Source: Nitrospirota bacterium
Lineage (GTDB): Bacteria > Nitrospirota > Nitrospiria > Nitrospirales > Nitrospiraceae
Reading direction: 5' to 3'
Length of the DNA: 42,695 nucleotides
Assembly: GCA_004296885.1 (NCBI GenBank)
Contig: SCVN01000022.1
Location: 1-42,695 of the forward strand
Below the pieces are notes generated by a model, which was not told where the DNA came from, ran no database searches, and worked only from the letters and a program-made list of their open reading frames with translations. The first letter of the stretch is position 1; each line of letters opens with the position of its first letter. Positions 23,894-38,740 of the stretch are shown here, in pieces. The position numbers were made by a program, and so were the translations under genes.

Positions 23894-23998
23894 TCGCTGC
23901 GCCAGCACGGATTCCTATCGTGTTTGCGATAATTTCACGGGCCGCGGCTCGTGGTCTCATCGAAGCGATTGATTTTGAGAGCCTCTCTCATCGAATTT

Positions 23999-24017
23999 GA
24001 TAATGATGATCGTTTGT
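23999..24017 (+). promoter_or_regulatory. Fur-box-like site upstream of the bacterioferritins
   Basis: The 19-mer matches the classical Fur box GATAATGATAATCATTATC at 14 of 19 positions, including an intact GATAATGAT left half. It lies 106 bases before the first bacterioferritin start. In this position it could repress or, as for some ferritins, be part of an activating arrangement. The match was scored by eye. Confidence 0.6.
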
Positions 24018-24122
24018 ACGTACAATGCCTGTTGACGAGTGCCGGTTCGAGGGGCCATACTCCATTTCATCGGGACCTGGGCGCCAGGGATTCCGCTCTT
24101 CACCGACTGCAAGGAGGCCGGT

Positions 24123-24602
24123 ATGAAAGCCAAAGAGGGGGTCATCGACCTGTTGAACAAGGTGCTCACGGCGGACCTGACCGCCATCAACCAATACTTC
24201 GTCCACGCCAAGATGTGCGAGAACTGGGGGTATGAGCGACTGCACCACCACGTGCGATCCCGCAGCATTGACGAGATGAAGGATGCGGATGAGCTCATCG
24301 GGCATATCCTCTATCTCGAAGGGGTTCCCAACGTGCAGCGTCTGGGGACGGTGCACGTGGGAGAAACGGTCCCGGAGCAGTTGAAGCTGGACCTGAAGGC
24401 GGAGCAGGAGATGCTCAAGATGTTGAGCGACGGGGTGGCTCATTGCACCAAGGCCGGGGATTTCACGACCCGGCACATGCTCGAGGACATGGCCAAGGAT
24501 GTGGATGCGCACATCGACTGGATCGAAACCCAGATGGAGACGATCAAGCAGGTCGGAGTGGAGAATTATCTCAGCGAGCAGATCAAGAAAGAAGGCAGTT
24601 AA
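24123..24602 (+). CDS. bfr: Bacterioferritin-like protein, di-iron ligands degenerate
   Basis: The 159-residue four-helix protein aligns end to end with E. coli bacterioferritin ([38 protein letters not shown]). By that alignment Met52, the haem ligand, is kept. The ferroxidase ligands are altered: position 18 is Asp not Glu, position 54 is Asp not His and position 127 is Val not Glu; Glu51, Glu94 and His130 remain. It may therefore be a haem-carrying, non-oxidising subunit that co-assembles with the next protein. The ATG at 24123 has AAGGAGG upstream; a longer frame to 24039 lacks a site. Fur control is suggested by the site at 23999. Confidence 0.9.
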
Positions 24603-24647: not shown

Positions 24648-25133
24648 ATGAAAGCGAAAGAAGGTGTGCTCGACTATCTGAACAAGATTCTTACCTGCGA
24701 GCTGACCGCGATTCACCAATATTTTCTCCACGCCGAGCTGTGCGAGCATTGGGGATTCGAGCGGCTGGAACACGCAGTCCGCTCCCGCAGCATCAGCGAG
24801 ATGCGACATGCCGAATCCCTGATCAAGCATATCCTGTATCTGGAAGGGATTCCGGATATGCAACGGCTGGCTCCCGTACATGTCGGTAAGACCGTGCCGG
24901 AACAGTTCAAGCTGGACCTAGCCGTGGAAATCGAGGATATCGCGTTGCTACGGAACGCCGTCGCCCATTGCGCCACCGTGGGAGACTTTACGACCAGGCA
25001 CCTGCTGGAGCATATGCTCAAAGACTCGGAAGAGCATATTGATTGGATCGAAACCCAGCTGGAGACCATCAAGCAAGTCGGCGCCGAGAAATACCTCAGC
25101 GAGCAGATCCACAAAGAGAGCGAAGGGACCTGA
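24648..25133 (+). CDS. bfr: Bacterioferritin, second copy
   Basis: This 161-residue bacterioferritin stores iron in a 24-mer shell and carries haem at subunit interfaces. It lies 45 bases after the first copy and clearly resembles it. Aligned to E. coli Bfr it keeps Glu18, Glu51, Met52 (haem), His54, Glu94 and His130. Position 127, the Glu of the ExxH motif, is Ser (DSEEH); a neighbouring Glu at 128 or 129 might substitute. It is the more likely ferroxidase subunit of the pair. Divergent pairs of this kind form mixed shells in some Proteobacteria. It converges with the small zinc-ribbon gene 51 bases downstream. Confidence 0.93.
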   Translation: MKAKEGVLDYLNKILTCELTAIHQYFLHAELCEHWGFERLEHAVRSRSISEMRHAESLIKHILYLEGIPDMQRLAPVHVGKTVPEQFKLDLAVEIEDIALLRNAVAHCATVGDFTTRHLLEHMLKDSEEHIDWIETQLETIKQVGAEKYLSEQIHKESEGT

Positions 25134-26495: not shown

Positions 26496-27005
26496 CTAGT
26501 CTCCTCCCCGGGCCACCAAGGGCTGGCCGAGCCCCCACATTTCGTACATCGGGACCGCAAAGAGGACGAGGAATCCCAGGGTCATCAGCGTGTCGCCGGT
26601 GAGCATGCTCAAGGCAAAGACCGGGTGGACATAGGTGATGAGCCAGGGCGAGACCAAGTCCAGGACGACCCCTGCGCAGGTGGCATAGGTGGTTGCCTGT
26701 TTCAACCAGGTACCGACCGAAGTGAGGTACAGGACATGGATCAGGATCATGAACACGACCGGCATGGTAAACAGATGAAAGTGAGTGATTTCGGCCAACT
26801 CGCGGAACGACATGGGTTCGCCGAACGTGGCGTCGGAGCCTCGGTAATGGTCGGCGACCTGTTGGAGCGAAAAGCTCGTCATGCTGTGGGCCCAATAGAA
26901 AGAAAACACGAACGCGGCCAACATGAACAGCAGGAACGCCGTATAGAGCAACCGAATGTGGCGGTCACTGTCGCGAAGCTTGAACCGGGCGTTGAAGTTA
27001 CGCAC
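26496..27005 (-). CDS. Four-helix inner-membrane protein with conserved-type histidines
   Basis: This 169-residue protein has four hydrophobic segments, at about 18-38, 76-97, 104-126 and 138-156. Histidines lie at or near membrane edges or inside helices: H40, H53, H75, H77, H90 and H127. HFHLFTMPVVFMILIH places three in helix 2. This pattern would allow haem b binding, but no haem has been shown and the family is not known to me. The start is GTG at 27005, 17 bases after the FMN-binding gene. Context suggests it passes electrons from quinol to the periplasmic FMN protein encoded just before it. A terminator follows. Confidence 0.75.
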   Translation of the reverse strand: MRNFNARFKLRDSDRHIRLLYTAFLLFMLAAFVFSFYWAHSMTSFSLQQVADHYRGSDATFGEPMSFRELAEITHFHLFTMPVVFMILIHVLYLTSVGTWLKQATTYATCAGVVLDLVSPWLITYVHPVFALSMLTGDTLMTLGFLVLFAVPMYEMWGLGQPLVARGGD

Positions 27006-27022: not shown

Positions 27023-27712
27023 TCAGTCCCCAAAGAGTGACCCCAAAAAACCCTTCGCGCTTCGGCGAGCCACCACCTTGTCGCTCCCGAGCCCGATGGG
27101 TTTCAGGTAGAACTCGTCCACGAGGACGACCACCCGTTTGACGCCCGCGCTCATGGACCGAACGGACATGGTCGCGCCGCTGATGTTAATGATGTCCTTG
27201 TTGATCCGGATCGGATCGAGCACCGTTTTGCCTTCGTATTGATAGTTGAATCGTTTGGTCCCCACCTCGCTCCCGCGCGACTCGCGGAATACCAAGAGCT
27301 CGACGTTGATGACTCGGCCCTTGTTATCGACGCCGACCATGTAGGTCATGGGTTTGTGCTTGCCGATCGTATTCTGGACCATCGCATAACCGTCTGTGAT
27401 GGCGCCGGTTTCGGCTATGTAGACCTCGAAGGACTCTTCGGGGAACTTCCAGCCGATGATGGCTTCGACCGTCCGTTTCTGGTCCGGGCTCAGCCGCAGG
27501 ACTTCTTTCCTGATCCGCTCGGAGTTCGGGAACATGGTCTTGAGCGCCTCTTCCTCTTCGAGGAACTCCTCATGGTGGCTCATTTCTTCCGGAGTCAGCC
27601 AGCGCTTGAGCTCGTTGTCGTAGACCCGTTCGGCTAGAGCCGGATTCGCACCGGTCGCGAAGAGGGTCGTCAGGACTATGAATCGAACAATGATGGTCAT
27701 GCCGGGAGGCAT
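27023..27712 (-). CDS. Periplasmic FMN-binding domain protein (covalent FMN site)
   Basis: This 229-residue exported protein has a signal peptide ending near residue 27 (ANPALA before ERV). It is followed by a charged helical segment and an FMN-binding domain like that of RnfG, NqrC and NosR. The ApbE target motif SGAT lies at 178-181 (INISGATMSVRSM), so FMN would be attached to Thr181. ITDGYAMVQNTIGKHKPMTY is the usual first strand pair. The ATG at 27712 is used because AAGGAG lies five bases upstream; it overlaps the end of the lipoprotein gene. apbE lies about 3.5 kb away. The likely role is periplasmic electron transfer; a ferric or flavin reductase function is inference. Confidence 0.85.
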   Translation of the reverse strand: MPPGMTIIVRFIVLTTLFATGANPALAERVYDNELKRWLTPEEMSHHEEFLEEEEALKTMFPNSERIRKEVLRLSPDQKRTVEAIIGWKFPEESFEVYIAETGAITDGYAMVQNTIGKHKPMTYMVGVDNKGRVINVELLVFRESRGSEVGTKRFNYQYEGKTVLDPIRINKDIINISGATMSVRSMSAGVKRVVVLVDEFYLKPIGLGSDKVVARRSAKGFLGSLFGD

Positions 27713-28155
27713 CCGCGCTCCTTCAATTTGGCGTTGATCCGCTTCATGGTGTCGGTGATGGCTTCCTCCGACGGTTCGACGGGAATCCATTGGAACAGGT
27801 GCGCCCCTCCACGGAACCCCCAGTGTTCACGGACTTCGTTCACACCGACGGATGTGACGTCGTCCATCCGTTTGAGGGTCACGACCATGCGAGCCCGTTC
27901 CTTGTCCGTCTCGAGGTTGCGTCCGAAGGCTCCATACGGCCGTCCGACGACCGGGTTTTCGATCCAGGCGGTTTCGATAATCCCCTTGTTCTTGTCTTGA
28001 ACGGTGATGAGGCCGGCCTTCATAGTCTCCAGCGAGGCCTCCCAGACCTTGTCGTACGGACAGACCACATAGTTCTCCTGGACGCCTCCCAGCGCCGCGC
28101 AGCCGGCCGAGAGGCTGACGATGAGTAATGGTAGGAAAATTCGATACGTACGCAC
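27697..28155 (-). CDS. Putative lipoprotein, BamC-like helix-grip fold
   Basis: This 152-residue protein begins with GTG at 28155 behind TGGAG. A signal sequence ends in LSAGC, where Cys19 could be lipidated; the residue at -3 is Ser, so the lipobox is imperfect. The mature part begins near YVVCPYDKVWEASLETMKAG and continues VQDKNKGIIETAW, a pattern like the BamC/DUF3576 type helix-grip domain seen in outer-membrane lipoproteins. Function is unknown. Its 3' end overlaps the FMN-binding gene, so the two are coupled, and it lies 57 bases after the porin gene with a strong hairpin in between. Confidence 0.7.
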   Translation of the reverse strand: MRTYRIFLPLLIVSLSAGCAALGGVQENYVVCPYDKVWEASLETMKAGLITVQDKNKGIIETAWIENPVVGRPYGAFGRNLETDKERARMVVTLKRMDDVTSVGVNEVREHWGFRGGAHLFQWIPVEPSEEAITDTMKRINAKLKERGCLPA

Positions 28156-28178
28156 GCTTGCTCCACTGAAGCTCAGGC

Positions 28179-28204
28179 GGGGGAGGCGGCGTGCCGCCTC
28201 CCCC
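28179..28204 (-). other. Strong intra-operon hairpin between porin and lipoprotein genes
   Basis: A perfect 12-bp inverted repeat (GGGGGAGGCGGC with GCCGCCTCCCCC) surrounds two bases. It lies directly after the porin stop on the minus strand. No T-run follows, so full termination is unlikely. Such a stem can protect the upstream porin mRNA from 3' decay and make the porin more abundant than the downstream genes. Confidence 0.65.
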
Positions 28205-28212
28205 ACTATCAG

Positions 28213-29679
28213 TTAGAAATACGTGGCCGCGGACAACACCAACGTGTTGTTGCCGGTCACGCGCCGGCTCAGGACCGGGTCGTAATCCTGCATGTTGAAT
28301 TGGTACTCGGCCTTAAATACGGCGTCCTCAATCGGCCGGTAGTTCAAGCCGAAGGTCAATCGCTGTTGATCCCGGTCGGCCCCCGCGCCGTAATCCAGGT
28401 TCGTATTGACCTGATCCCAACGCAATACGGCGGTGAAGGTGGACCCAGGGCCGAACCGACTGGGCGCCAGTTTCGCCAGAAACTCCGGCATGAAGTGGTA
28501 ATTCATCTGGGCGTACATACCGCTCATCCGCTGGGGCCTGAGACGAGGAATCCCATCGGCGCCGGTGTAGAAGGTCTGGGTCATTCCCGGGAGGTTCTGT
28601 GAATTGCCCGAGATATAGGACCAGGCCGCTTCGCCGATGAGTTCCCAGGGGCCACGTTGGAAGGTCCAGTCCAGGGCATAGATGCTCAGACTGCGTTTGC
28701 CCTGCGGGTCATAGGTGCTGTAGTAGCCGGAGCCGGCGACTTCCGCTCCGAGGAAGGGACTGTAGGCCACGCGGCCAACCACGCCCTTGCCGTTGTTGTT
28801 ATCGAGTCCGTCGTCTGCAGGCGACTTGCGTTGCCGAGAGTTGCGCGTGCCGCTAGTTTCTGAAATGCGCGGAGCACCCGCCGTTGTGTAACCATTGGAG
28901 CCTGTAACCACATACAATTCGTAGTCCACCTTGGACAGCCGACCTGGGTAGAAGGTGCCGTAGAAGCCGGCCCCGGTTTCCGCCATCGTGGTCGGGATGA
29001 TGAACTGGGCCACGAGCGGTCGGTCGGTGAGGTCGTTCAAGGGAGAGTCGTGCAAGAGGTTGAATTTGCCGACCGGCAACAGCAGGATGCCCGCACGCAG
29101 GTTGATCTGTTCCTTGATCAGATAGTCGATCGTTGCAAATTCCAGGCTGATCTCATTGTCGCTTATTTCCCGAATACCATGCTCAATCTCGAGCTCCGAG
29201 GCAAACTTCACATGTTCTGTGATATCGGCATAGAAGAAAGGGACAAACCGTTGCTGGTCGAAGGTGCTAGTGGATTCCCCGATGCCGGGGTTGCCGGAGG
29301 CTCCGTTGTCGATCCGGACTTTACTCTGGTTCCGGTATTGGATGTCTGCATAGCCGCCCACGATGGCCTTGGGAGCGGCGACGAAGGGCTTGGCATAGAC
29401 CAAGCGGCCTGACCCGGTGGAGCTGAAGGACAGGGGGGCCTGCTCTTTTGCGCGGAGGTCCTTGGCGACATCCGGCAGGGGGCCCACGCCTGGCTCGGCA
29501 AATGGCTCGGCCGCCTTGGGCTCCATGGGTCCTCGTTCCCGCTTTTCGTGTTCCTTGAACTCTTGCACTTGCTGCTCCAACTTCTTAAGTCGTTCTTCGA
29601 GGGCCGTATCCTCCGCCCAAGCCGGCGAAGCCAGCAGGGGACAGAGAAGGAGAGCCCAGATGGTAGACCTGGTCTTCAT
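28213..29679 (-). CDS. Outer-membrane porin with N-terminal coiled coil
   Basis: This 488-residue protein has a signal peptide cleaved near AWA at residue 22. A short coiled coil (about 24-47, LEERLKKLEQQVQEFKEHEK) follows, then a long beta-rich region with alternating strands and a C-terminal Phe (LVLSAATYF), the usual outer-membrane barrel signature. It resembles phosphate-selective or generic porins of about 16 strands. It is not a TonB-dependent receptor: no plug domain or TonB box is seen. It is the main gene of the Fur-box operon and probably lets iron or small ligands reach the periplasm. The 157-base gap to the Com-like gene shows nothing further. Confidence 0.82.
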   Translation of the reverse strand: MKTRSTIWALLLCPLLASPAWAEDTALEERLKKLEQQVQEFKEHEKRERGPMEPKAAEPFAEPGVGPLPDVAKDLRAKEQAPLSFSSTGSGRLVYAKPFVAAPKAIVGGYADIQYRNQSKVRIDNGASGNPGIGESTSTFDQQRFVPFFYADITEHVKFASELEIEHGIREISDNEISLEFATIDYLIKEQINLRAGILLLPVGKFNLLHDSPLNDLTDRPLVAQFIIPTTMAETGAGFYGTFYPGRLSKVDYELYVVTGSNGYTTAGAPRISETSGTRNSRQRKSPADDGLDNNNGKGVVGRVAYSPFLGAEVAGSGYYSTYDPQGKRSLSIYALDWTFQRGPWELIGEAAWSYISGNSQNLPGMTQTFYTGADGIPRLRPQRMSGMYAQMNYHFMPEFLAKLAPSRFGPGSTFTAVLRWDQVNTNLDYGAGADRDQQRLTFGLNYRPIEDAVFKAEYQFNMQDYDPVLSRRVTGNNTLVLSAATYF

Positions 29680-29836: not shown

Positions 29837-30007
29837 TTAACGTTCGATCGATTCGAACGGAATCAGGACAATGCGCTTGCACCGTTTGCACTTGAGCTCC
29901 ACGCCGTCCTTGCGAAGTTTGGCGATCAGTTGCCCGCACTCGCAGCGCGCCTCGTGCGGGGGCGCGGGCAGCTCATTGACGGCACAAGAATGACTCAGCA
30001 TGTCCAT
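29837..30007 (-). CDS. Com-like zinc-ribbon small protein
   Basis: This 56-residue protein (from ATG 30007; ATG 30001 and TTG 30022 are alternatives and none has a good ribosome site) contains RCECGQLIAKLRKDGVELKC, then KRCKRIVLIPFE. The two Cys pairs form a compact zinc ribbon that resembles Com, the Mu translational activator, though no phage genes are near. It may bind RNA or DNA. It is the first gene behind the Fur-box promoter and reads toward the porin operon, so it would be made in iron shortage. Confidence 0.65.
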   Translation of the reverse strand: MDMLSHSCAVNELPAPPHEARCECGQLIAKLRKDGVELKCKRCKRIVLIPFESIER

Positions 30008-30029: not shown

Positions 30030-30048
30030 GATAGTGAGATTTATTATC
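30030..30048 (-). promoter_or_regulatory. Fur box over the promoter of the Com-like/porin operon
   Basis: GATAGTGAGATTTATTATC matches the Fur consensus GATAATGATAATCATTATC at 15 of 19. A further GATAAC hexamer abuts it at 30024. On the minus strand the right half reads GATAAT, a 5 of 6 match to a -10 box, so bound Fur would cover the promoter. It lies 22 bases before the Com-like gene. Confidence 0.72.
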
Positions 30049-30599: not shown

Positions 30600-31214
30600 A
30601 TGGTTCTTCTTGGGATCATACGGAGGCTGTCGAACGGAGCGCTTCTGCTAAGCGCTCTCGTGGCCTGCGCCGCCTCGGTTCCGGCCGAAGCACCGGATTT
30701 GGCAGCCGGGCAAGTGGTCGTCTTCGGTCGGATCGTGACGGTACTCACAGCCCCCAGCAGCCGTCCCTACGAGCCGAAAGTCACATTCTTTGAAGTGCTG
30801 AATCGAAGCACCGGAGGCAGAATCAAGGTGACAATCGATTCCAACGACAAACTCTTCGTCGTGCAGTTGCCGACCGGCGACTACGAGGTGACCAGGGTCC
30901 AAATCCACGAAGGCCCCTTTGCGGCCATGGCCGATCTGTCGCTCGCGTTTCACATCGGCCAGGAACGTCTGGCCTACCTGGGGACTTGGCAAATGGGTGT
31001 CGATCAGCCGCGCAACGACCGGCATCTTCTGGTTGCGGTGGTGCAAAATCAAGCCGATCAGGTCGAAGCCGAACAGCACCTGATTGCGCACCATGCAGAC
31101 TTGGCCGATCAAACCATCACCACCCTTTTGCCGTCTCCCGCCGCGACCGACACCGCGTTATACGAAGTCATGCCTTACCCACGGGTCGTGCCCTACTTCC
31201 GGCGGCATTGGTGA
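30600..31214 (+). CDS. Putative lipoprotein of unknown function
   Basis: This 204-residue protein has a signal peptide and lipobox ALVAC (cysteine at about residue 23). The mature part has a beta-sandwich-like stretch (AGQVVVFGRIVTVL, LFVVQLPTGDYEVTRVQIHE) of the carboxypeptidase-regulatory kind, then a helical C-terminal segment (NQADQVEAEQHLIAHHADLA). I do not recognise the family. Its stop overlaps the GTG start of apbE, implying coupled synthesis, so it may assist the flavinylation or electron-transfer role of its neighbours. Confidence 0.72.
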   Translation: MVLLGIIRRLSNGALLLSALVACAASVPAEAPDLAAGQVVVFGRIVTVLTAPSSRPYEPKVTFFEVLNRSTGGRIKVTIDSNDKLFVVQLPTGDYEVTRVQIHEGPFAAMADLSLAFHIGQERLAYLGTWQMGVDQPRNDRHLLVAVVQNQADQVEAEQHLIAHHADLADQTITTLLPSPAATDTALYEVMPYPRVVPYFRRHW

Positions 31215-32275
31215 AGATCCCCACGATATTCCAGCGAAGCCGCCGCATCGAGGCCATGGCGTCCGGACTCGCGGCAATTTTTCTGCTCGCGGTGCCGTTG
31301 CTTTCGGCCTGTCAGTCCGTTGCCCCGCCTGCGCCGGTGATGGTCCAGCGGGCCCAGATGCTGATGGGCACGCTGGTGCGGATTAGCGCTGTTGCGCCGT
31401 CGGAGGCGCAGGCGCAAGCCGCCGCCACGGCCGGATTTCAAGAGATCCGGCGGTTGGAGGAGCTGCTCAGTACCTGGATTCCCACGAGCGAACTGTCGCG
31501 CGTCAATGCGGCCGCCGGGCGTGAGCCGGTGGCGGTCAGTCCGGATACCCTGCTGATCCTTCAACGATCCCTCGAGATCGCCAAGCTCACGGACGGAGGC
31601 TTCAATATTGTGGTCGGGCCGGCCATTCAGGCTTGGAGCGTCACCGAGCGGCAGCGAGTGCCGTCCGATATGGAGCTGGAGGCGCTGCGCCCCCTGCTCG
31701 ATCTCGCGCAGTTGCGGTTGGATCGGAAGGGCTCCACGGCGTTCTTGGCCAAGCCCGGCATGCGCGTGGATGTGGGGGGGATTGGAAAAGGATTTGCCGC
31801 CGATCGGGCGGTCATGGTCATGCAACGTGCCGGCGCCACCGCCGGCGTCGTGGCCTTGTCGGGAGACATCAAGACGTTCGGCCGATTGCCAGATGGACGC
31901 CCCTTTCCCTTCGGCATTCAACATCCCCGCAAAGAGGGGGCGTTGCTGGCCCGGTTGGACCTTCAGGACGAGGCCATCTCCACGGCCGGGGACTATGAAC
32001 GGTTCTTCGAACGTGAGGGTATCCGATACCACCATATCCTGGATCCCAAGACATTGAAGCAGGCCCGCGGATGCCAGAGCGTGACGATCGTGGCGACGGA
32101 AGGCATCATGGCCGATGGGCTGGATACGGGCATATTCGTCATGGGGCCGGAAGCAGGAATGGCTCTGATCGAGCGGTTGCCGGGAGTCGAAGGGGTGATC
32201 GTGGACCGTGAGGGACGGGTCCTGGTGTCCTCTGGCCTCAAGGGCCGGCTCACCATGGAATCTGGTTCGCCCTGA
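31211..32275 (+). CDS. apbE: FAD:protein FMN transferase (flavinylation enzyme), lipoprotein
   Basis: ApbE transfers FMN from FAD to Thr or Ser in an SGAT-type motif of periplasmic proteins. The GTG at 31211 overlaps the previous stop and gives 354 residues with a signal peptide and lipobox LLSAC. Typical motifs are MLMGTLVRISAV, LTDGGFNIVVGP, MRVDVGGIGKGFAADRAV, VVALSGDIKTFG, ISTAGDYERFF, HHILDPKT and MADGLDTGIFVMGPEAG, with the Mg-binding and FAD sites. Its natural target here is the FMN-binding protein at 27023-27712. An alternative start is ATG 31256. The stop lies six bases before the convergent tonB stop. Confidence 0.95.
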   Translation: MKIPTIFQRSRRIEAMASGLAAIFLLAVPLLSACQSVAPPAPVMVQRAQMLMGTLVRISAVAPSEAQAQAAATAGFQEIRRLEELLSTWIPTSELSRVNAAAGREPVAVSPDTLLILQRSLEIAKLTDGGFNIVVGPAIQAWSVTERQRVPSDMELEALRPLLDLAQLRLDRKGSTAFLAKPGMRVDVGGIGKGFAADRAVMVMQRAGATAGVVALSGDIKTFGRLPDGRPFPFGIQHPRKEGALLARLDLQDEAISTAGDYERFFEREGIRYHHILDPKTLKQARGCQSVTIVATEGIMADGLDTGIFVMGPEAGMALIERLPGVEGVIVDREGRVLVSSGLKGRLTMESGSP

Positions 32276-32281
32276 GGGGTG

Positions 32282-33217
32282 TTAGCGCAGTCTGTAGCTG
32301 ATCGGAACTTGCACGACCACCTGGGAGCGTCCCAAGGGTTGCGGCAAGGTCAGCGGAGCGGCTTTCTTCAAGACGGCCACGGCCGCGTCGTCCAGGATGG
32401 AGTGCCCCGAACTCTCCGAAACCGTCAAATCAACCAGCTGTCCGTCTTCGCCGATCACCGCTCGAAGCACCACTCTGCCTTCCCACCGGTTCGCGCGGGC
32501 CATGTGGGGGTAATGCTTCAGCTGCTCCACCTTGGTCCGGATCGTCTGAGCCAACCAGCCATAATCAGTCTTGGTCTGGGCAGTCTGACCCGGTTGGGCT
32601 GAGGGCCCGGGCTGAGACGAGGGAGTCAAAGAGGCCACAGTTGCGGGGAGCGCCTGGGGTGCCGGGATATCCTGGACCTGAGCCTGAGGACTGGTCTGGA
32701 TGGCTTGTGTCTCGACTGCCGACCGGGCTTGGGCTGCAGGGGCGTTGGCCACGACAGGAGGCGCTGCGGAGTGAGTTGAGGGAGCCGGGGTCGGAGGTGC
32801 GACAGGCGCGGCGACAGGTTCCGATGGCGCCGGTCCCTGTTGCGTGCCGGCCTCACTGGCTGTCGGTATCGGTTCGGCAGGCTTGACCACCGGCGCCGGC
32901 TGTGCGCTCTGTTGTCGGATGGGAGGAACCGGTTGCGTGGGCGTTGCGTCGGCTTTGACGGGCCGGGCCTGTGTCGGAGGCATCGGCTTGCTTGGTTGGG
33001 CCGTGGCCGGTTGAGCGTGGCTGAGTGATTCGGCAGACGTCCGGGACTCGACCTTGGAGACGACCCATCGAAACGGCTCCGGTTGGGGCGCCAAACGCAA
33101 GTCTGCAACCATGACGATCGCGGCCCCGACGGCCAATCCATGAAGGAGCAGACTGACGGCCCAGCTCCAGACACGGGCTTGGACTTCCCCGGCACGGTGC
33201 AACGCATGCACGGTCAC
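32282..33217 (-). CDS. tonB: TonB energy-transducing protein
   Basis: TonB carries proton-motive energy from ExbB-ExbD to outer-membrane receptors. The 311 residues have an N-terminal anchor (about 19-41, SLLLHGLAVGAAIVMVADL), a long Pro/Ala/Gln-rich spacer of about 150 residues that can span the periplasm, and a C-terminal TonB domain (YPHMARANRWEGRVVLRAVI, then LTVSESSGHSILDDAAVAVL). The GTG start overlaps the exbD stop. No TonB-dependent receptor is present in the window. Confidence 0.92.
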   Translation of the reverse strand: MTVHALHRAGEVQARVWSWAVSLLLHGLAVGAAIVMVADLRLAPQPEPFRWVVSKVESRTSAESLSHAQPATAQPSKPMPPTQARPVKADATPTQPVPPIRQQSAQPAPVVKPAEPIPTASEAGTQQGPAPSEPVAAPVAPPTPAPSTHSAAPPVVANAPAAQARSAVETQAIQTSPQAQVQDIPAPQALPATVASLTPSSQPGPSAQPGQTAQTKTDYGWLAQTIRTKVEQLKHYPHMARANRWEGRVVLRAVIGEDGQLVDLTVSESSGHSILDDAAVAVLKKAAPLTLPQPLGRSQVVVQVPISYRLR

Positions 33218-33588
33218 GAACGGACGACCTCCAGGCTGACTTGCTGGAATCCCAATCCGCGAACTTCATCCACCAATTGGACAAATCGTTCCAGCAACGT
33301 GACGCGGTCGGCGCGCACGACGACCAGGGATTCGCGCGGGTGGGGAAACAACGCGCCCTTGAGCTCATCCTGCGTGACGGGCCGATCGTTCATGTACAGG
33401 TGTCCGTCCGCCGTGAGGGTGATGACCAGCGGGACGTCTTTCCGGTCCCCCGCCTCCTTGGCCTTGGCGAGGTCCACGGGGATCTGGCCGGTCGTGATGA
33501 ATGTCGCCGTGGTGAGGACGATCACCAGCAGTACCAGCATGACGTCCACGAGGGGGATGACGTTGATCTGGTCCAGTTCACGATCCAT
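33214..33588 (-). CDS. exbD: Biopolymer transport protein ExbD/TolR
   Basis: This 124-residue protein has one N-terminal helix (VIPLVDVMLVLLVIVLTTAT) containing the essential aspartate, then a small periplasmic domain (VPLVITLTADGHLYMNDRPV). It converts proton flow to mechanical work with ExbB and TonB. It overlaps exbB by 11 bases upstream and tonB by four bases downstream. TolR is the alternative, but the TonB and iron context favour ExbD. Confidence 0.9.
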   Translation of the reverse strand: MDRELDQINVIPLVDVMLVLLVIVLTTATFITTGQIPVDLAKAKEAGDRKDVPLVITLTADGHLYMNDRPVTQDELKGALFPHPRESLVVVRADRVTLLERFVQLVDEVRGLGFQQVSLEVVRS

Positions 33589-34003
33589 GTTGCACCTTGT
33601 ATTGGGTGACCAGCTCGGTCACGCGGCGGCGCAGGACGTTGTTCATGACCACGCAGGGAATGGCGACGAGCAGGCCGGCGGCGGTGGCCTTGAGAGCCAG
33701 GCTGAGGCCGATCATGATCGTGCTGACCGCCATCGTGCCCGAGGTGCCCATTGTGTGAAACGTGAGCATGATGCCTAGGACCGTGCCCAGCAGGCCGATA
33801 TAGGGCGCATTGGCCGCGACCGTGCCGATGACGACCAGCCGTTTCGTCAGGGCCAACTCGAAGATCTGGAGGTTCGGGTATTGGGCCGGATCAATGCGGC
33901 GGTAGAAGAACCAACGCTCGACCGCGACCGCGACGGCCCAGAGACTGAGGGCCAGCAACAGGCCGATCACACCGTAGTCCACCGTTTCTTTCAGGGCATC
34001 CAT
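33578..34003 (-). CDS. exbB: MotA/TolQ/ExbB proton-channel protein, short form
   Basis: This 141-residue protein has three hydrophobic helices, at about 9-28, 59-78 and 95-120. The core APYIGLLGTVLGIMLTFHTM, then LSLALKATAAGLLVAIPCVV, is diagnostic of the family. Classical ExbB is about 240 residues; this version lacks the long N-terminal region and much of the cytoplasmic loop, as in a known short subgroup. It is the first gene of exbB-exbD-tonB. No clear Fur box was seen upstream. Confidence 0.9.
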   Translation of the reverse strand: MDALKETVDYGVIGLLLALSLWAVAVAVERWFFYRRIDPAQYPNLQIFELALTKRLVVIGTVAANAPYIGLLGTVLGIMLTFHTMGTSGTMAVSTIMIGLSLALKATAAGLLVAIPCVVMNNVLRRRVTELVTQYKVQHGS

Positions 34004-34085: not shown

Positions 34086-35207
34086 CTATGTGGGCGTCGG
34101 GTGGCCCTGTTCGAACAGGACGGTGTGCGTGGCCAGGACTTGCACGTTCACGAACGTACCGATGGGGTAGATACTGGTCGAGGTTTCACTGCTGTGCAGG
34201 ATGTCTCCCGAAGACAGTTGGACGGTGTAGAGATTCTCCGATCCCCGAAACTGCCGGGCCGTGATGCGGGCGGTGCCTTGCTCGGACGGGGCAATGTGCA
34301 CGTCATCCGGGCGGATCATAACCACCACCTTGGTGCCTGTCGCGAAGCGCTTGTGGTTCGGAAAGGGGCCGATCTCGGTGGTCACCTGGCCGTTCTCGAT
34401 CAGGCCGGGGATAAAGTCGGCCTGGCCGACGAAGTCCGCGACGAAAGGGCTGGCGGGGGTATGGTAAATGGCTTCCGGCGAGTCGAACTGCTCCAAGCGT
34501 CCGTCGCGAAGGACAGCGACCCGGTCGGCCATGGCGAAGGCTTCTTCGTGGTCGTGGGTGACCAGGATCGCCGTCGTGTTGGTCTGTAACAACAGGTCGT
34601 ATAATTCTTCCCGCATCTTGCCGGTCATGTCCGGGTCGAGATTGCTGAAGGGTTCATCGAGCAGCAAGACCGTCGGTTTCTGAGCCAGCGCCCGGGCGAG
34701 GGCCACCCGCTGCTGCTGTCCTCCGGACAGCTCGTGGGGGTAGCGTCGTTCCAACCCCGTCAGCCCGATCAATGCCAACATGGTGGAGACCCGAGCGAAC
34801 CGTTCCTCCTTGGACAGGTCGCGGAGTCCGAAAGCGATGTTGTCCAGCACGCGCAAATGGGGGAATAACGCATAGTCCTGGAAGACCATGCCCACACGGC
34901 GCCGTTCGGTGGCCACGAGGGACTCCGGCGAGGACACGAGGCGGCCTTCCAGGTAGACCTCTCCCGCTGTGATCGGCTCGAATCCCGCAATAACCCGCAA
35001 CGTGGTGGTCTTGCCGCATCCGGACGGGCCGAGCAGGCAGAGAATCTCCCCCTCACGGATGGCAAGGGAGATATCGCAAATCGCCGGTCGGGCCCGTTCG
35101 TAGGCGCAGGTGACATGGCGCAGCTCCAGCACCGTCGGGCAAGAAGGGACTTCCGGAAGCCGCCCTCCGGAGATCGCGTCATGGCGCTGACGTTGACCGA
35201 GCGACAT
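34086..35207 (-). CDS. fbpC: Ferric iron ABC transporter ATPase (FbpC type)
   Basis: This ATPase drives import by the permease encoded just upstream. The ATG at 35207 gives 373 residues and has AAGGG seven bases before it; a longer frame to 35246 is less likely. Walker A is GPSGCGKTTTLR, the signature LSGGQQQRVALARALAQ, Walker B VLLLDEPFSNLDPD and the H-loop VTHDHEEAFAMADR. The C-terminal 120 residues form an OB/TOBE regulatory domain, as in FbpC. Spermidine or sulfate importers share this architecture; the Fe-binding protein and fur in the same cluster point to ferric iron. Confidence 0.9.
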   Translation of the reverse strand: MSLGQRQRHDAISGGRLPEVPSCPTVLELRHVTCAYERARPAICDISLAIREGEILCLLGPSGCGKTTTLRVIAGFEPITAGEVYLEGRLVSSPESLVATERRRVGMVFQDYALFPHLRVLDNIAFGLRDLSKEERFARVSTMLALIGLTGLERRYPHELSGGQQQRVALARALAQKPTVLLLDEPFSNLDPDMTGKMREELYDLLLQTNTTAILVTHDHEEAFAMADRVAVLRDGRLEQFDSPEAIYHTPASPFVADFVGQADFIPGLIENGQVTTEIGPFPNHKRFATGTKVVVMIRPDDVHIAPSEQGTARITARQFRGSENLYTVQLSSGDILHSSETSTSIYPIGTFVNVQVLATHTVLFEQGHPTPT

Positions 35208-35236
35208 CAGGTTACCCTTGGGAAAAACGAGTCTGA

Positions 35237-35322
35237 AAGTCGGCAAGTCGGCAAGTCGGAATCCCCCGACGGTACTATTTCAACTTCCACCATAATTTTT
35301 CGACTTTATGACTTTCCAACTT
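35237..35322. repeat. Short AAGTC tandem and inverted repeats between permease and ATPase genes
   Basis: Three tandem copies of AAGTCGGC (35237-35259, the last lacking its C) face a related run in the opposite sense (GACTTTAT GACTTTCC AACTT at 35302-35322). The 21-base arms pair at 16 positions. It lies in the 127-base gap between fbpB and fbpC. It could form an RNA stem reducing or separating ATPase expression. Confidence 0.6.
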
Positions 35323-35334
35323 TTGAACTTACCA

Positions 35335-36921
35335 TCAGGCTGCGCGCCAATCCTTCGCGACCAGCAGCAGAATCGCCGGGATGGTCATGGCCACGATCAG
35401 GAGCGCCGAGGGGGCGGCCAATTGATAGTATTCTTCGCTGGCTTCCAGCCAGACCCGCACGGCCAGGGTGTCATAGCCCACCGGGCGGAGGAGCAGCGTT
35501 GCCGGCAGCTCCTTCATACATTGCAGAAACATCAAGACCCAGGCGGCGATGAAACCGCCACGGATGAGGGGCAGGGTCACCGTCCGAAGCGTGCCGGCCG
35601 GCCCGTAGCCGAGGCTTCGCGCCGCTTCTTCAAGATTCGGTGTGACTTGTTGCAAGGCCGGCTCCATGGTCTGAAGTCCGGCCGGGAGAAAGTGCAGGAC
35701 ATAGGCGGCGACCAGCACCAGGATCGTGCCGTACCAGAAGGGAGCGAGGTGGGAAACCAGGACCAGCAAGGCCAGGGCGCCAACCGGACCGGGCAAGACG
35801 TAGCCGGCGTAGACCGCTTGTGTGCAGAGGATGTGGAGCTTCGACGGTCGCCGGCTTGCCGCGTAGGCCAGCGGCGTGCCGATGACGATCGCCAGCGTGG
35901 CGGCCGACCCAGACAGGAGGAGGCTGTTCGCGATGAATCCCAGAAACCTGGCGTCCAGCGCTCCGTCCGCCAGCGCCGCGAGGCTCCACTTGATGAGGAG
36001 CCAGGCCGGCATGCCGAATGAGGCGCCGAACACGGCGGCCGCGTATGTCGTCGAGAGCCACGCGCCCAACGGAGGCAGCGCTTTGCGGGCCGGCGCGCGA
36101 TAGCGGCCGGTGGTCTGGTAGAACCGGCTTTGTTGACGGAACCACCGTTCGGCAATCAGGAAGAGCAGGGCGAGCAAGACCAGAAGCAGGCTCAATGAAG
36201 CGGCAGCGGCGTGATCGTAGCGCCCGCTCACTTGTTGGTATACGGCATAGGTGAAGGTCTGGAATCGGAGCAGCGACACGGCCCCGAAGTCTGAGACGAC
36301 GTATAACACTACCAACGACAGGCCGGCCACGATGGCCGGGCGCATCAGCGGCAGGGTGACGCGGAGCCAGGTCTGGAGCCGCGAGGCGCCGCAGGCCTGC
36401 GCAACCTCCTCAAAGGCCACGTTGAAATTCATGAGGGCCGCCCGGCTCAGCAGATAGACGAAGGGAAAGGTGTCCAGGGTCATGACCAGCGTGGCGCCGG
36501 AGAGGCTGTGGGGCGGGAAGATCCTGGCGCCGGGTCCGGCCCAGGCTTGCCAGACCTGCTCGGCGGGGCCTCCGACCCCAAGCAGGTATGTGTAGATGTA
36601 AGCCAGCACATAGGTCGGCATGGCCAGCGGCAGCACCAGCGCCCATTCCCAAAACCGTCTGGCGGGAAACTCATAACGGACCACCAGCCAGGCCAAGGAT
36701 ACGCCCAGCAGGAGGGTGCCGGTCGACACGCTCAGGGCCAGGGACCCGGTGTTGACCAGCAATTCGGGAATCCTCGTATTCCACAGACGGGTCCAGACGG
36801 TGGTGCCGGCCGATAGGGCCTGGTAGGTAACAAAGGCCAGGGGCAGGCAAATGAGGCCGGCAACGGTCAGCGCAAAAATTGAAAGAGGGGTGGGGGAGGC
36901 ATGGCGGACTGTGGTGACCAT
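35335..36921 (-). CDS. fbpB: Ferric iron ABC transporter permease (FbpB type, two-domain)
   Basis: This 528-residue inner-membrane permease has about twelve helices arranged as two fused binding-protein-dependent transport domains. Each half has an EAA-like loop: FNVAFEEVAQACGASRLQTW (about residues 164-183) and EEAARSLGYGPAGTLRTVTL near residue 435. Such fused permeases are typical of ferric iron uptake (FbpB, SfuB, FutB). It starts six bases after fbpA and is part of the same transcript. Confidence 0.93.
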   Translation of the reverse strand: MVTTVRHASPTPLSIFALTVAGLICLPLAFVTYQALSAGTTVWTRLWNTRIPELLVNTGSLALSVSTGTLLLGVSLAWLVVRYEFPARRFWEWALVLPLAMPTYVLAYIYTYLLGVGGPAEQVWQAWAGPGARIFPPHSLSGATLVMTLDTFPFVYLLSRAALMNFNVAFEEVAQACGASRLQTWLRVTLPLMRPAIVAGLSLVVLYVVSDFGAVSLLRFQTFTYAVYQQVSGRYDHAAAASLSLLLVLLALLFLIAERWFRQQSRFYQTTGRYRAPARKALPPLGAWLSTTYAAAVFGASFGMPAWLLIKWSLAALADGALDARFLGFIANSLLLSGSAATLAIVIGTPLAYAASRRPSKLHILCTQAVYAGYVLPGPVGALALLVLVSHLAPFWYGTILVLVAAYVLHFLPAGLQTMEPALQQVTPNLEEAARSLGYGPAGTLRTVTLPLIRGGFIAAWVLMFLQCMKELPATLLLRPVGYDTLAVRVWLEASEEYYQLAAPSALLIVAMTIPAILLLVAKDWRAA

Positions 36922-36927
36922 GCAGCG

Positions 36928-38004
36928 TTAGCGGAGCCCTGCCTGCTCAATCAGCGCCATGGCCGGTTCCCGCAATTCGCCCAAGCGGGCCAGGGGAACC
37001 GATGCGATGCGGAAGGACTCGCGTTTGGGGAGGGCCGGATCGGCCGGGACTTCAGGACGGAGGGGATATTCCTTGTTCACATCCGCAAACAGCTTCTGGC
37101 CCTCGTGTGACACCAGAAACTCCACCAGCCGCTTCGCTGCGTCCAGCTTGCGGCTCTGCTTGATGATCCCGACTCCGGCAACGTTCATGATCGCACCCAT
37201 GCCCTTGTCCTGCTGATCCAACATGTGGAGAGCGATGGGGGCGCCGGGATGGTCGGCCAGGTACCGGTAGAAGTAATAGTGGTTCACTAGGCCCAGGGCC
37301 ACCTCTCCCTTCGCGAGGGCGTCCACGATCTGGGAACTCTTCCCGTAGACGAACGTGCCGGCGTTGGCTTTGAGCCCGAGTAGGAACTGCTGGGTCCGCT
37401 CGTCGCCCTGGGCCGCCTTGATCACCGACACCCCGGCTTGCAGGTACTCGCTGCCTGCGTTGGGGATGGCGATCTTGCCTTTCCAGCGGGGGGCTGCCAA
37501 GTCCAGGACCGACCGAACATCGCCCGGCTTGACCAGATTGGTGTTGTAGACCAGGGTCCAGAAGCGTCCGGACAGCCCGATCCAGCTGCCATCCGCGGCC
37601 CTGAAGGTGGGCGGAATGGCTTGCTCGATTTCCTTCATGTGCAGAGGCTGCAAAAGCCCCAACTCCCGGGCCCGCTCCAGGCTGCCGGCATCGTTGGTAA
37701 TCAGCAGGTCGGCGGGGGTGCGGTCTCCCTCGGCTTGCAGCCGGTTCACCAGTTCCGTGGTGCCGGAGGAGAGGAGTTCCACCTGGATGCCGGTCTTGGT
37801 CTGGAAGGCATCCAGGACCGGCTTGATGAGCTTTTCAGCCCGCCCTGAGTAGACGATCAGCTTGTCGGCGGCGGCGCTCTCACCGATGAGTCCCGGGAGA
37901 CCGCTGAACAGCAGGGCTGCAAAGAAGCTCAGAAGCGCAAGGAAGCTCCGGCGACCAAGGCGATGGGTGGGGGGGCAGATAGAGGGCTGTCGGTGCGACT
38001 TCAT
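36928..38004 (-). CDS. fbpA: Ferric iron-binding periplasmic protein (FbpA type)
   Basis: This exported solute-binding protein of 358 residues has a basic N-terminus, a twin-arginine-like RRSFLALL signal (GRRSFLALLSFFAALLFSG) and cleavage near ESAAA. The mature start KLIVYSGRAEKLIKPVLDAF is typical of FbpA and FutA. The paired tyrosines in LVNHYYFYRYL are the Fe(III) ligands in this family. The possible RR motif suggests Tat export, seen for some FutA proteins. A Fur-box-like site lies 22 bases upstream. Confidence 0.92.
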   Translation of the reverse strand: MKSHRQPSICPPTHRLGRRSFLALLSFFAALLFSGLPGLIGESAAADKLIVYSGRAEKLIKPVLDAFQTKTGIQVELLSSGTTELVNRLQAEGDRTPADLLITNDAGSLERARELGLLQPLHMKEIEQAIPPTFRAADGSWIGLSGRFWTLVYNTNLVKPGDVRSVLDLAAPRWKGKIAIPNAGSEYLQAGVSVIKAAQGDERTQQFLLGLKANAGTFVYGKSSQIVDALAKGEVALGLVNHYYFYRYLADHPGAPIALHMLDQQDKGMGAIMNVAGVGIIKQSRKLDAAKRLVEFLVSHEGQKLFADVNKEYPLRPEVPADPALPKRESFRIASVPLARLGELREPAMALIEQAGLR

Positions 38005-38079: not shown

Positions 38080-38511
38080 TCAATGACGGCAAGTTGCGCA
38101 GACGCCGTACAGTTCCAGCTTGTGAGTTTTAATGGTGAACCCATTCCGTTTGGCGACTTCCTCTTGCAGCCGTTCGATATCGCAGTTTTCAAATTCGACG
38201 ATCTTGCCGCAGTCCGTACAGATCAAATGATCGTGATGTCCCTTGTGCGAGATGTTGTCGTACTGGGTCTGCGTGCCGAAATGGCGCGCCTGCGCCAGGC
38301 CTGCCTCGCAAAACAGATTCAAGGTTCGATAGATGGTCGCCAGCCCGATATGAGGGTCTTTCTTGGCCAACATGCGATACATCTGCTCCGCCGTGATGTG
38401 CTCCATCTTGAGGAACACGGAGAGTATTTGTTCGCGCTGGCGGGTCAACTTCAGTTGATGCTTGGCCAGGTGATCCCTCAGCAGGAGGGTCTCTTTGAGG
38501 TCTTTGTGCAT
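38080..38511 (-). CDS. fur: Ferric uptake regulator
   Basis: Fur-family repressor of 143 residues. The winged helix-turn-helix covers about residues 10-85 (LKLTRQREQILSVFLKMEHI, then HIGLATIYRTLNLFCEAGLA). The metal region HKGHHDHLICTDCGKIVEFE and the final CATCRH supply the two CxxC structural zinc pairs. PerR and Zur share this layout; the iron genes nearby favour Fur. ATG 38511 is used; GTG 38520 is possible and neither has a clear ribosome site. A weak Fur-like palindrome (GATAAT TG ATTATT, 38526-38539) upstream could allow self-control. Confidence 0.92.
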   Translation of the reverse strand: MHKDLKETLLLRDHLAKHQLKLTRQREQILSVFLKMEHITAEQMYRMLAKKDPHIGLATIYRTLNLFCEAGLAQARHFGTQTQYDNISHKGHHDHLICTDCGKIVEFENCDIERLQEEVAKRNGFTIKTHKLELYGVCATCRH

Positions 38512-38740
38512 AGGCGTCACGAGTTGATAATTGATTATTAAAAACCAAAACGGCTAATGGGTCAAGCAAGAGTTTTTATGGAAGCGCACGCGATGGGCCG
38601 GCGTCATGACGGACGTGTCGAGCCCTGTCCGGTTGCGTTGACGGGCCTGCGATCGGCGGACTATAGTGGCACGAGGTCGCATGATGACCGGATCCTTTCG
38701 GGTCAGCGGCGCTGCGGAATGACGGTCGGCTGGGTGGGAA

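Follow-up and report, generated by a model that had tools for sequence, protein, structure and literature searches.

Flavinylated periplasmic proteins depend on a membrane partner for electrons. Five membrane classes that serve such proteins, together with links to iron, are described in PMC8238504. In PMC11334425 the membrane proteins linked to flavinylation and ferrosomes were extended by DUF4405 and FezC, for which binding of haem b was shown, and FezC was modelled as a homodimer forming haem sites. Here we consider a four-helix membrane protein (TM4) encoded in a stretch of 42,695 nucleotides from a Nitrospirota bacterium (contig SCVN01000022.1 of assembly GCA_004296885.1; 'the window').

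TM4 resembles DUF4405 and FezC in being a membrane protein with conserved histidines that comes to notice through an apbE neighbourhood or an iron organelle (PMC11334425). However, DUF4405 has six helices and four central histidines, whereas TM4 has four long helices in the AlphaFold monomer and three strictly conserved histidines on one helix. Like the MsrQ-like and PepSY-like systems, the proposed one would use membrane electron transfer to a domain flavinylated by ApbE; for the PepSY-like clusters PMC8238504 reports iron links and Fur repression. Unlike these two classes, TM4 has no match to PF01794 or PF03929. More generally, hmmscan at E up to 1 gave no match between TM4 and the Pfam models Ferric_reduct, PepSY_TM, NQR2_RnfD_RnfE, DsbD, NapH-like and DUF4405. 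TM4 would, by inference, work like the known flavinylation membrane classes. The genome that contains the window was searched for three of these classes (models PF01794, PF03929 and PF03116), and none was found. The FMN_bind partner of TM4 aligns weakly to RnfG across the flavinylation site (E 0.0068); NqrB/RnfD (PF03116) was not found in the genome. Finally, the FTR1 permease, cupredoxin and FMN_bind protein of the P19/FTR1 iron-assimilation clusters (PMC8238504) also occur at the distant TM4 loci L129 and L135. The TM4 system differs from those clusters in having a dedicated four-helix membrane subunit together with a porin and ApbE, and FTR1 is found at none of the 80 close (Nitrospira) loci. 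With moderate confidence, we favour the reading in which a flavinylation system working in iron assimilation has TM4 as its electron-transfer subunit in the cytoplasmic membrane.

The operon and its flavinylation genes

The operon that includes TM4 has the order small zinc-ribbon-like ORF, porin, lipoprotein, FMN_bind and TM4 (Table 1), with the FMN_bind stop codon 17 nt ahead of the TM4 start. A homologue of TM4 was matched in 46 of the 61 genomes searched, including its own, and the ORF is therefore a real gene.

Table 1. Features of the TM4 operon and its surroundings (window coordinates)
Feature	Coordinates	Strand	Remarks
Bacterioferritin 1	24039..24602	+	Fur-consensus-like sites upstream at 23993-24017
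Bacterioferritin 2	24648..25133	+	
TM4 (four-helix membrane protein)	26496..27005	-	Invariant H75, H77, H90; 169 aa, GTG start
FMN_bind protein	27023..27790	-	PF04205 3e-8; SGATMS motif; Sec-like signal peptide by eye
Small putative lipoprotein	27697..28206	-	LSAGC lipobox by eye; no family over cut-off
Outer-membrane porin	28213..29679	-	Model matches OprP/OprO and other porins
Small zinc-ribbon-like ORF (CxCG...CxxC), operon leader	29837..30007	-	Weak zinc-ribbon matches only
Fur-box-like site	30030..30048	.	22 nt upstream of small zinc-ribbon-like ORF
ApbE (FAD:protein FMN transferase)	30986..32275	+	PF02424 2.4e-79; only copy found in genome
TonB	32282..33217	-	
ExbD	33214..33588	-	
ExbB	33578..34003	-	
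ABC importer ATPase	34086..35246	-	
ABC importer permease	35335..36921	-	
ABC importer solute-binding protein	36928..38004	-	
Fur-family regulator	38080..38520	-	Nearest to ferric-uptake regulators

We compiled close TM4 loci, keeping 80 of the 138 found. In every one of them FMN_bind lies directly upstream of TM4 (median gap 24 nt, range 12-151), and in 79 the FMN_bind protein carries the flavinylation motif [STG]GATMS. The lipoprotein was found in 75 and the porin in 74 of these loci; the missing cases are mostly cuts at contig ends, with L029 as a real exception. There (L029:7681-8001) a short FMN_bind remnant without the motif comes after the Fur-like box, TM4 comes next, and neither porin nor lipoprotein was found. 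In 60 of 63 upstream regions the first ORF of the operon is the small zinc-ribbon-like one. The porin model (pLDDT 62.5) matches OprP in Foldseek at 2.4e-11, with other porins scoring about equally; the L138 porin homologue exceeds the PF07396 cut-off (2e-6), whereas the porin of the window does not. Downstream of TM4 and on the same strand there is an HD-domain gene (PF13487; 25714-26421, minus strand), which may be co-transcribed with TM4 and has a homologue in 66 of the 80 close loci.

The initial annotation had named a flavoprotein as the partner of TM4, and at the sequence level the upstream gene bears this out through its FMN_bind domain and motif (Table 1). As far as its sequence tells, this neighbour is built to carry covalent flavin. 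As in ApbE-flavinylated FMN_bind systems, an FMN_bind protein with the S/T-GA-T/S motif is accompanied by an ApbE encoded in the same cluster. The true starts of both FMN_bind and ApbE probably lie inside the listed ORFs. A single FMN_bind and a single ApbE were found in the genome (E up to 0.01), both in the window; ApbE is divergent from the operon and was present inside the fetched stretch in 63 of the 80 close loci.

The coupling is also evident from a comparison of 36 hand-picked Nitrospiraceae genomes, 20 with TM4 and 16 without. All 20 genomes with TM4 have FMN_bind and 19 have ApbE, the one without a detected ApbE being G013, where TM4 lies on a 5.3-kb contig. Among the 16 genomes without TM4, 12 have no FMN_bind and four have just another type (277-aa frame), so that the TM4-associated type is restricted to genomes with TM4 in this comparison. 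ApbE is present in six of the 16, four of which carry the other FMN_bind type. This other type (E ~1e-17) was seen in G036, G153, G255, G267 and G311, with its own ApbE either ~3 kb away or on another contig.

At more distant, class-level loci of the TM4 clade defined below by H90, FMN_bind is fused to ApbE in seven of eight cases, and the remaining locus is truncated where its contig ends (Pfam was run on L129 only, and the other loci were assigned by profile and motif). The single ORF is found at L129:6480-8018 (minus strand), L130, L131, L132, L133, L135 and L136, and part of it at L134. All eight show a twin-arginine-like stretch between the ApbE and FMN_bind domains, and no export signal was seen by eye ahead of ApbE. 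At these loci flavinylation might take place in the cytoplasm and precede Tat export.

The TM4 family, its fold and its histidines

TM4 had been described as a four-helix membrane protein of an unrecognised family, and both parts of this description agree with our results. The AlphaFold model (mean pLDDT 78.4, pTM 0.73), for which the TM4 of the window was aligned with those of 76 close loci (77 sequences), has long helices at residues 13-40, 67-93, 99-122 and 128-158 and a short one at 47-55. Model confidence is just 61-65 for residues 51-80, which counts against the preferred reading. Neither Pfam nor NCBIfam gave a match over cut-off (hmmscan against Pfam at E up to 1 returned DUF1673 alone, at 0.05 and below cut-off), a PDB profile search with the close set described below gave none at E up to 10, and a PHROGs search gave none either. 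Judged by these searches, TM4 represents a membrane protein family without a name. Similar proteins may also occur in Proteobacteria. No literature on this operon was found among the titles and abstract openings of open-licence PMC papers. The single PDB profile match obtained with the wide set (E 0.21) was disregarded. Fold comparison by Foldseek (best E 4.1) and by VIA-align (Z 8.1, an unrelated helical bundle) was unusable, and this, too, counts against the preferred reading.

The N-terminus of TM4 is basic, with a mean of 6.0 K+R versus 2.0 D+E over the 88 rows of the close alignment. In some TM4 relatives a CxxCH motif is located between helices 1 and 2, and c-type haem attachment takes place in the periplasm. 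Together these two points suggest a topology in which the helix 1-2 loop would be periplasmic and both the N- and C-termini cytoplasmic.

To describe histidine conservation we used a close set (88 rows, one of them the window's own genome copy, hence 87 sequences) and a wide set of 29 diverse, hand-chosen members spanning the phylum Nitrospirota. H40, H53, H75, H77 and H90 are each invariant in the close set (87/87), and H16 is present in 83 sequences. H127 occurs in the window sequence alone (1/87), with Ser in 85 of the others and Ala in one. In the wide set H75 and H77 are the sole columns invariant in all 29 members. H90 is retained in 18/29, H53 in 16/28, H40 in 5/28 and H127 in 3/29. Among other residues, Y54 is conserved in 28/28 and both W121 and W157 in 27/29.

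The tree of the 29 wide-set members is split into groups of 18 and 11 (support 100/100). H90 is present in all members of the first group and in none of the second. Each of the 18 aligned H90-clade members is accompanied by an FMN_bind protein bearing the S/T-G-A-T/S motif, L132 having Ser for Thr, and E72 is likewise conserved in 18/18. Because the tree splits only once, the association of H90 with flavin represents one evolutionary event, not repeated co-variation; the dependence of this link on a single split counts against the preferred reading. In the other clade CxxCH is found between helices 1 and 2 in 8/11 members, which we counted as a sign of redox nature. Two of its members, L142 and L145, adjoin an FMN_bind-like protein without the flavinylation motif; among the other nine, the L140 frame is too short to judge CxxCH and the remaining eight show it.

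The initial annotation proposed bis-His haem b ligation by H75, H77 and H90 bracketing helix 2, with H40 at the end of helix 1 and H127 between helices 3 and 4. All five histidines are where they were said to be, except that helix 2 contains H75, H77 and H90 instead of being bracketed by them. The ligation scheme retains the invariant histidines of helix 2 and loses much of the rest. H127 is ruled out as a ligand by its conservation, non-conserved histidines having been named as grounds for refutation. H40, invariant among the close sequences, falls under the same ground beyond the Nitrospira group, where it is mostly lost; with 5/18 in the flavin-linked clade it is retained only as a possible ligand of the Nitrospira group. 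H53, a conserved candidate ligand, had been missing from the list; in the flavin-linked clade it is found in 14/18 members, with Tyr in the other four. The strictly conserved histidines of this clade (H75, H77 and H90; 18/18) are all on helix 2, which counts against the preferred reading. Strictly conserved histidines on different membrane helices of one subunit, as expected of a bis-His b-type cytochrome, are not found in the flavin clade.

Placed on an ideal helix, H75 and H90 are separated by ~60 degrees and ~22 Å and point to about the same face. Thus spaced, they are unable to hold one haem together, and this arrangement would instead suit two sites in a TM4 dimer. Since only helix-2 histidines are strictly conserved, a bis-His haem within a single subunit would need H53 or H40. 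Judged from the alignments, a haem bound without these two would need a second subunit or a non-His ligand, which leaves a dimer, another ligand or no haem at all.

Iron-related neighbours and the Fur-like box

The operon and ApbE sit between genes for Fur, an ABC importer, ExbBD and TonB and those for two bacterioferritins. Of 42 close loci of full length, 39 have ExbB nearby, 38 have TonB and 33 have bacterioferritin. The Fur proteins of the window, L129, L133, L137 and L138 score best with ferric-uptake models, below the cut-offs. An assignment of the ABC importer as FbpABC was dropped, as the NCBIfam models that score best with it concern 2-aminoethylphosphonate and molybdate, none of them reaching cut-off. 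These models, which are not for iron, count against the preferred reading; they lowered its weight and raised that of a respiratory alternative considered below. Phmmer matches to the importer ATPase or permease were left out of the iron evidence.

Fur itself was found in the fetched flanks of none of the 80 close loci, which also counts against the preferred reading. At 12 distant loci of the H90 clade, Fur is near in nine and Fur or FTR1 in ten, versus none of ten loci of the other clade (Fisher 1e-4, only a guide for loci of shared ancestry and unequal length).

A Fur-like block is present upstream in 64 of the 80 close loci. Of the 18-mers in the 700 nt ahead of the porin it is the best conserved, being present in 50 of 62 loci, the next best elsewhere reaching 19/62. 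When the window was scored against the 19 positions of the Fur consensus, sites with at least 14 matches occurred only at 30030, before the porin operon, and at 23993-23999, before bacterioferritin 1. The conservation and sequence of the site at 30030 make it a candidate, Fur-like box of the operon. A genome scan with this box, which N. defluvii entered twice (as G323 and G032), found one exact site in each of two genomes. With up to three mismatches allowed there was no match in the window's own genome, which counts against a wide regulon. N. defluvii and G036 together gave five imperfect matches, of which one is clearly before an iron gene: it has three mismatches and lies 56 nt before a Bfd gene of N. 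defluvii. The other four (one in N. defluvii, three in G036) are not clearly ahead of iron genes, and a reversed control pattern gave two matches in G036.

Possible role of TM4 and its sister clade

The coupling to FMN_bind and ApbE, the flavinylation motif, the conservation of the family, the iron-related neighbours and the Fur-like box support the reading of TM4 as an electron-transfer subunit of an iron system. In such a system ApbE would place covalent FMN on the periplasmic FMN_bind protein. Electrons would enter TM4 from the quinol pool or from a cytosolic donor and would be passed to this FMN. The flavinylated protein would then reduce ferric iron that came in via the porin of the operon, and a transporter, FTR1 in some relatives, would take up the reduced iron. 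The direction of electron flow could also be reversed. The likeliest cofactor of TM4 would be haem b, bound by H75/H77 close to the periplasmic side and by H90 further inside the membrane, with a second copy of TM4 supplying the other ligands. We put the chances of haem b of any kind in TM4 at about even.

The cofactor is where the most serious alternative arises. TM4 could be haem-free, with HxH, Y54, E72 and W121 forming a quinol site or a docking site; it would then hand electrons directly from quinol to FMN or merely anchor or assemble FMN_bind. We regard this as a real, if minority, possibility. It would account for the strict or nearly strict conservation of H75/H77, Y54, W121/W157 and E72, most of which point toward the presumed periplasmic face, and for the absence of a conserved histidine on a second membrane helix. 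However, H90, ~20 Å further along helix 2, accompanies every flavin-linked member, and a periplasmic docking site would not need it. Alternatively, one haem b might be held within a single TM4 subunit by a helix-2 histidine and H53, or H40 in the Nitrospira group. The invariance of H53 and H40 among the close sequences and the retention of H53, or its replacement by Tyr, throughout the flavin clade fit such a haem. Yet H40 is rare in that clade, the four members with replaced H53 retain the same partner and H127 is peculiar to the window among the close sequences; we regard this arrangement as quite improbable.

Other alternatives concern iron rather than haem. The system might serve respiration or extracellular electron exchange, with the iron-related genes adjacent for other reasons. 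The c-type cytochromes adjoining the paralogue at the other-clade locus L150, the combination of porin and periplasmic carrier, reminiscent of electron export, and the best models of the ABC importer are in line with this. On the other hand, the Fur-like box and the presence of Fur or FTR1 nearby point to iron, and the porin, lipoprotein, FMN_bind and TM4 contain no CxxCH; we consider a respiratory role unlikely. Least probable, in our estimate, is that TM4 itself binds or moves iron through a metal site formed by HxH and H90, the flavoprotein setting the redox state of the iron. The iron-related neighbours would suit such a function, but no FTR1-like motif is apparent by eye, and paralogues with HxH occur without Fur or FTR1 nearby (0/10).

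Returning to the preferred reading of TM4 as an electron-transfer subunit, a more specific version can be put forward only tentatively. TM4 may found one more class of membrane apparatus that transfers electrons to ApbE-flavinylated proteins, namely a Fur-controlled homodimeric cytochrome in which the same helix of both copies (H75/H77 and H90) would hold the haems. It might act as the assimilatory ferric reductase of Nitrospira and other Nitrospirota, and in the sister clade an inserted c-type haem motif would take the place of the flavoprotein. If the preferred reading is right, Nitrospira, a major nitrite oxidiser, would gain a candidate route of iron reduction and an unnamed protein family a testable job. 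The two clades would also provide a natural case in which flavin and haem substitute for each other on the same membrane core.

The window's own genome also encodes a TM4 paralogue, at G000:C23:50509-50802 (L149:5455-6300), in which helices 1 and 2 are separated by a CxxCH motif, HxH is retained and H90 is absent; a tblastn search of plasmids with this paralogue gave no match. At L142:3928-5846 a short member without H90 is followed by the FMN_bind-like protein without the flavinylation motif and then by a CxxCH-type member. After a CxxCH-type paralogue, the stretch L150:625-3108 encodes a cytochrome c (PF00034, 7.9e-11) and a protein of 410 aa; the latter, which has CxxCH close to its N-terminus and matches nothing in Pfam, might be an outer-membrane cytochrome.
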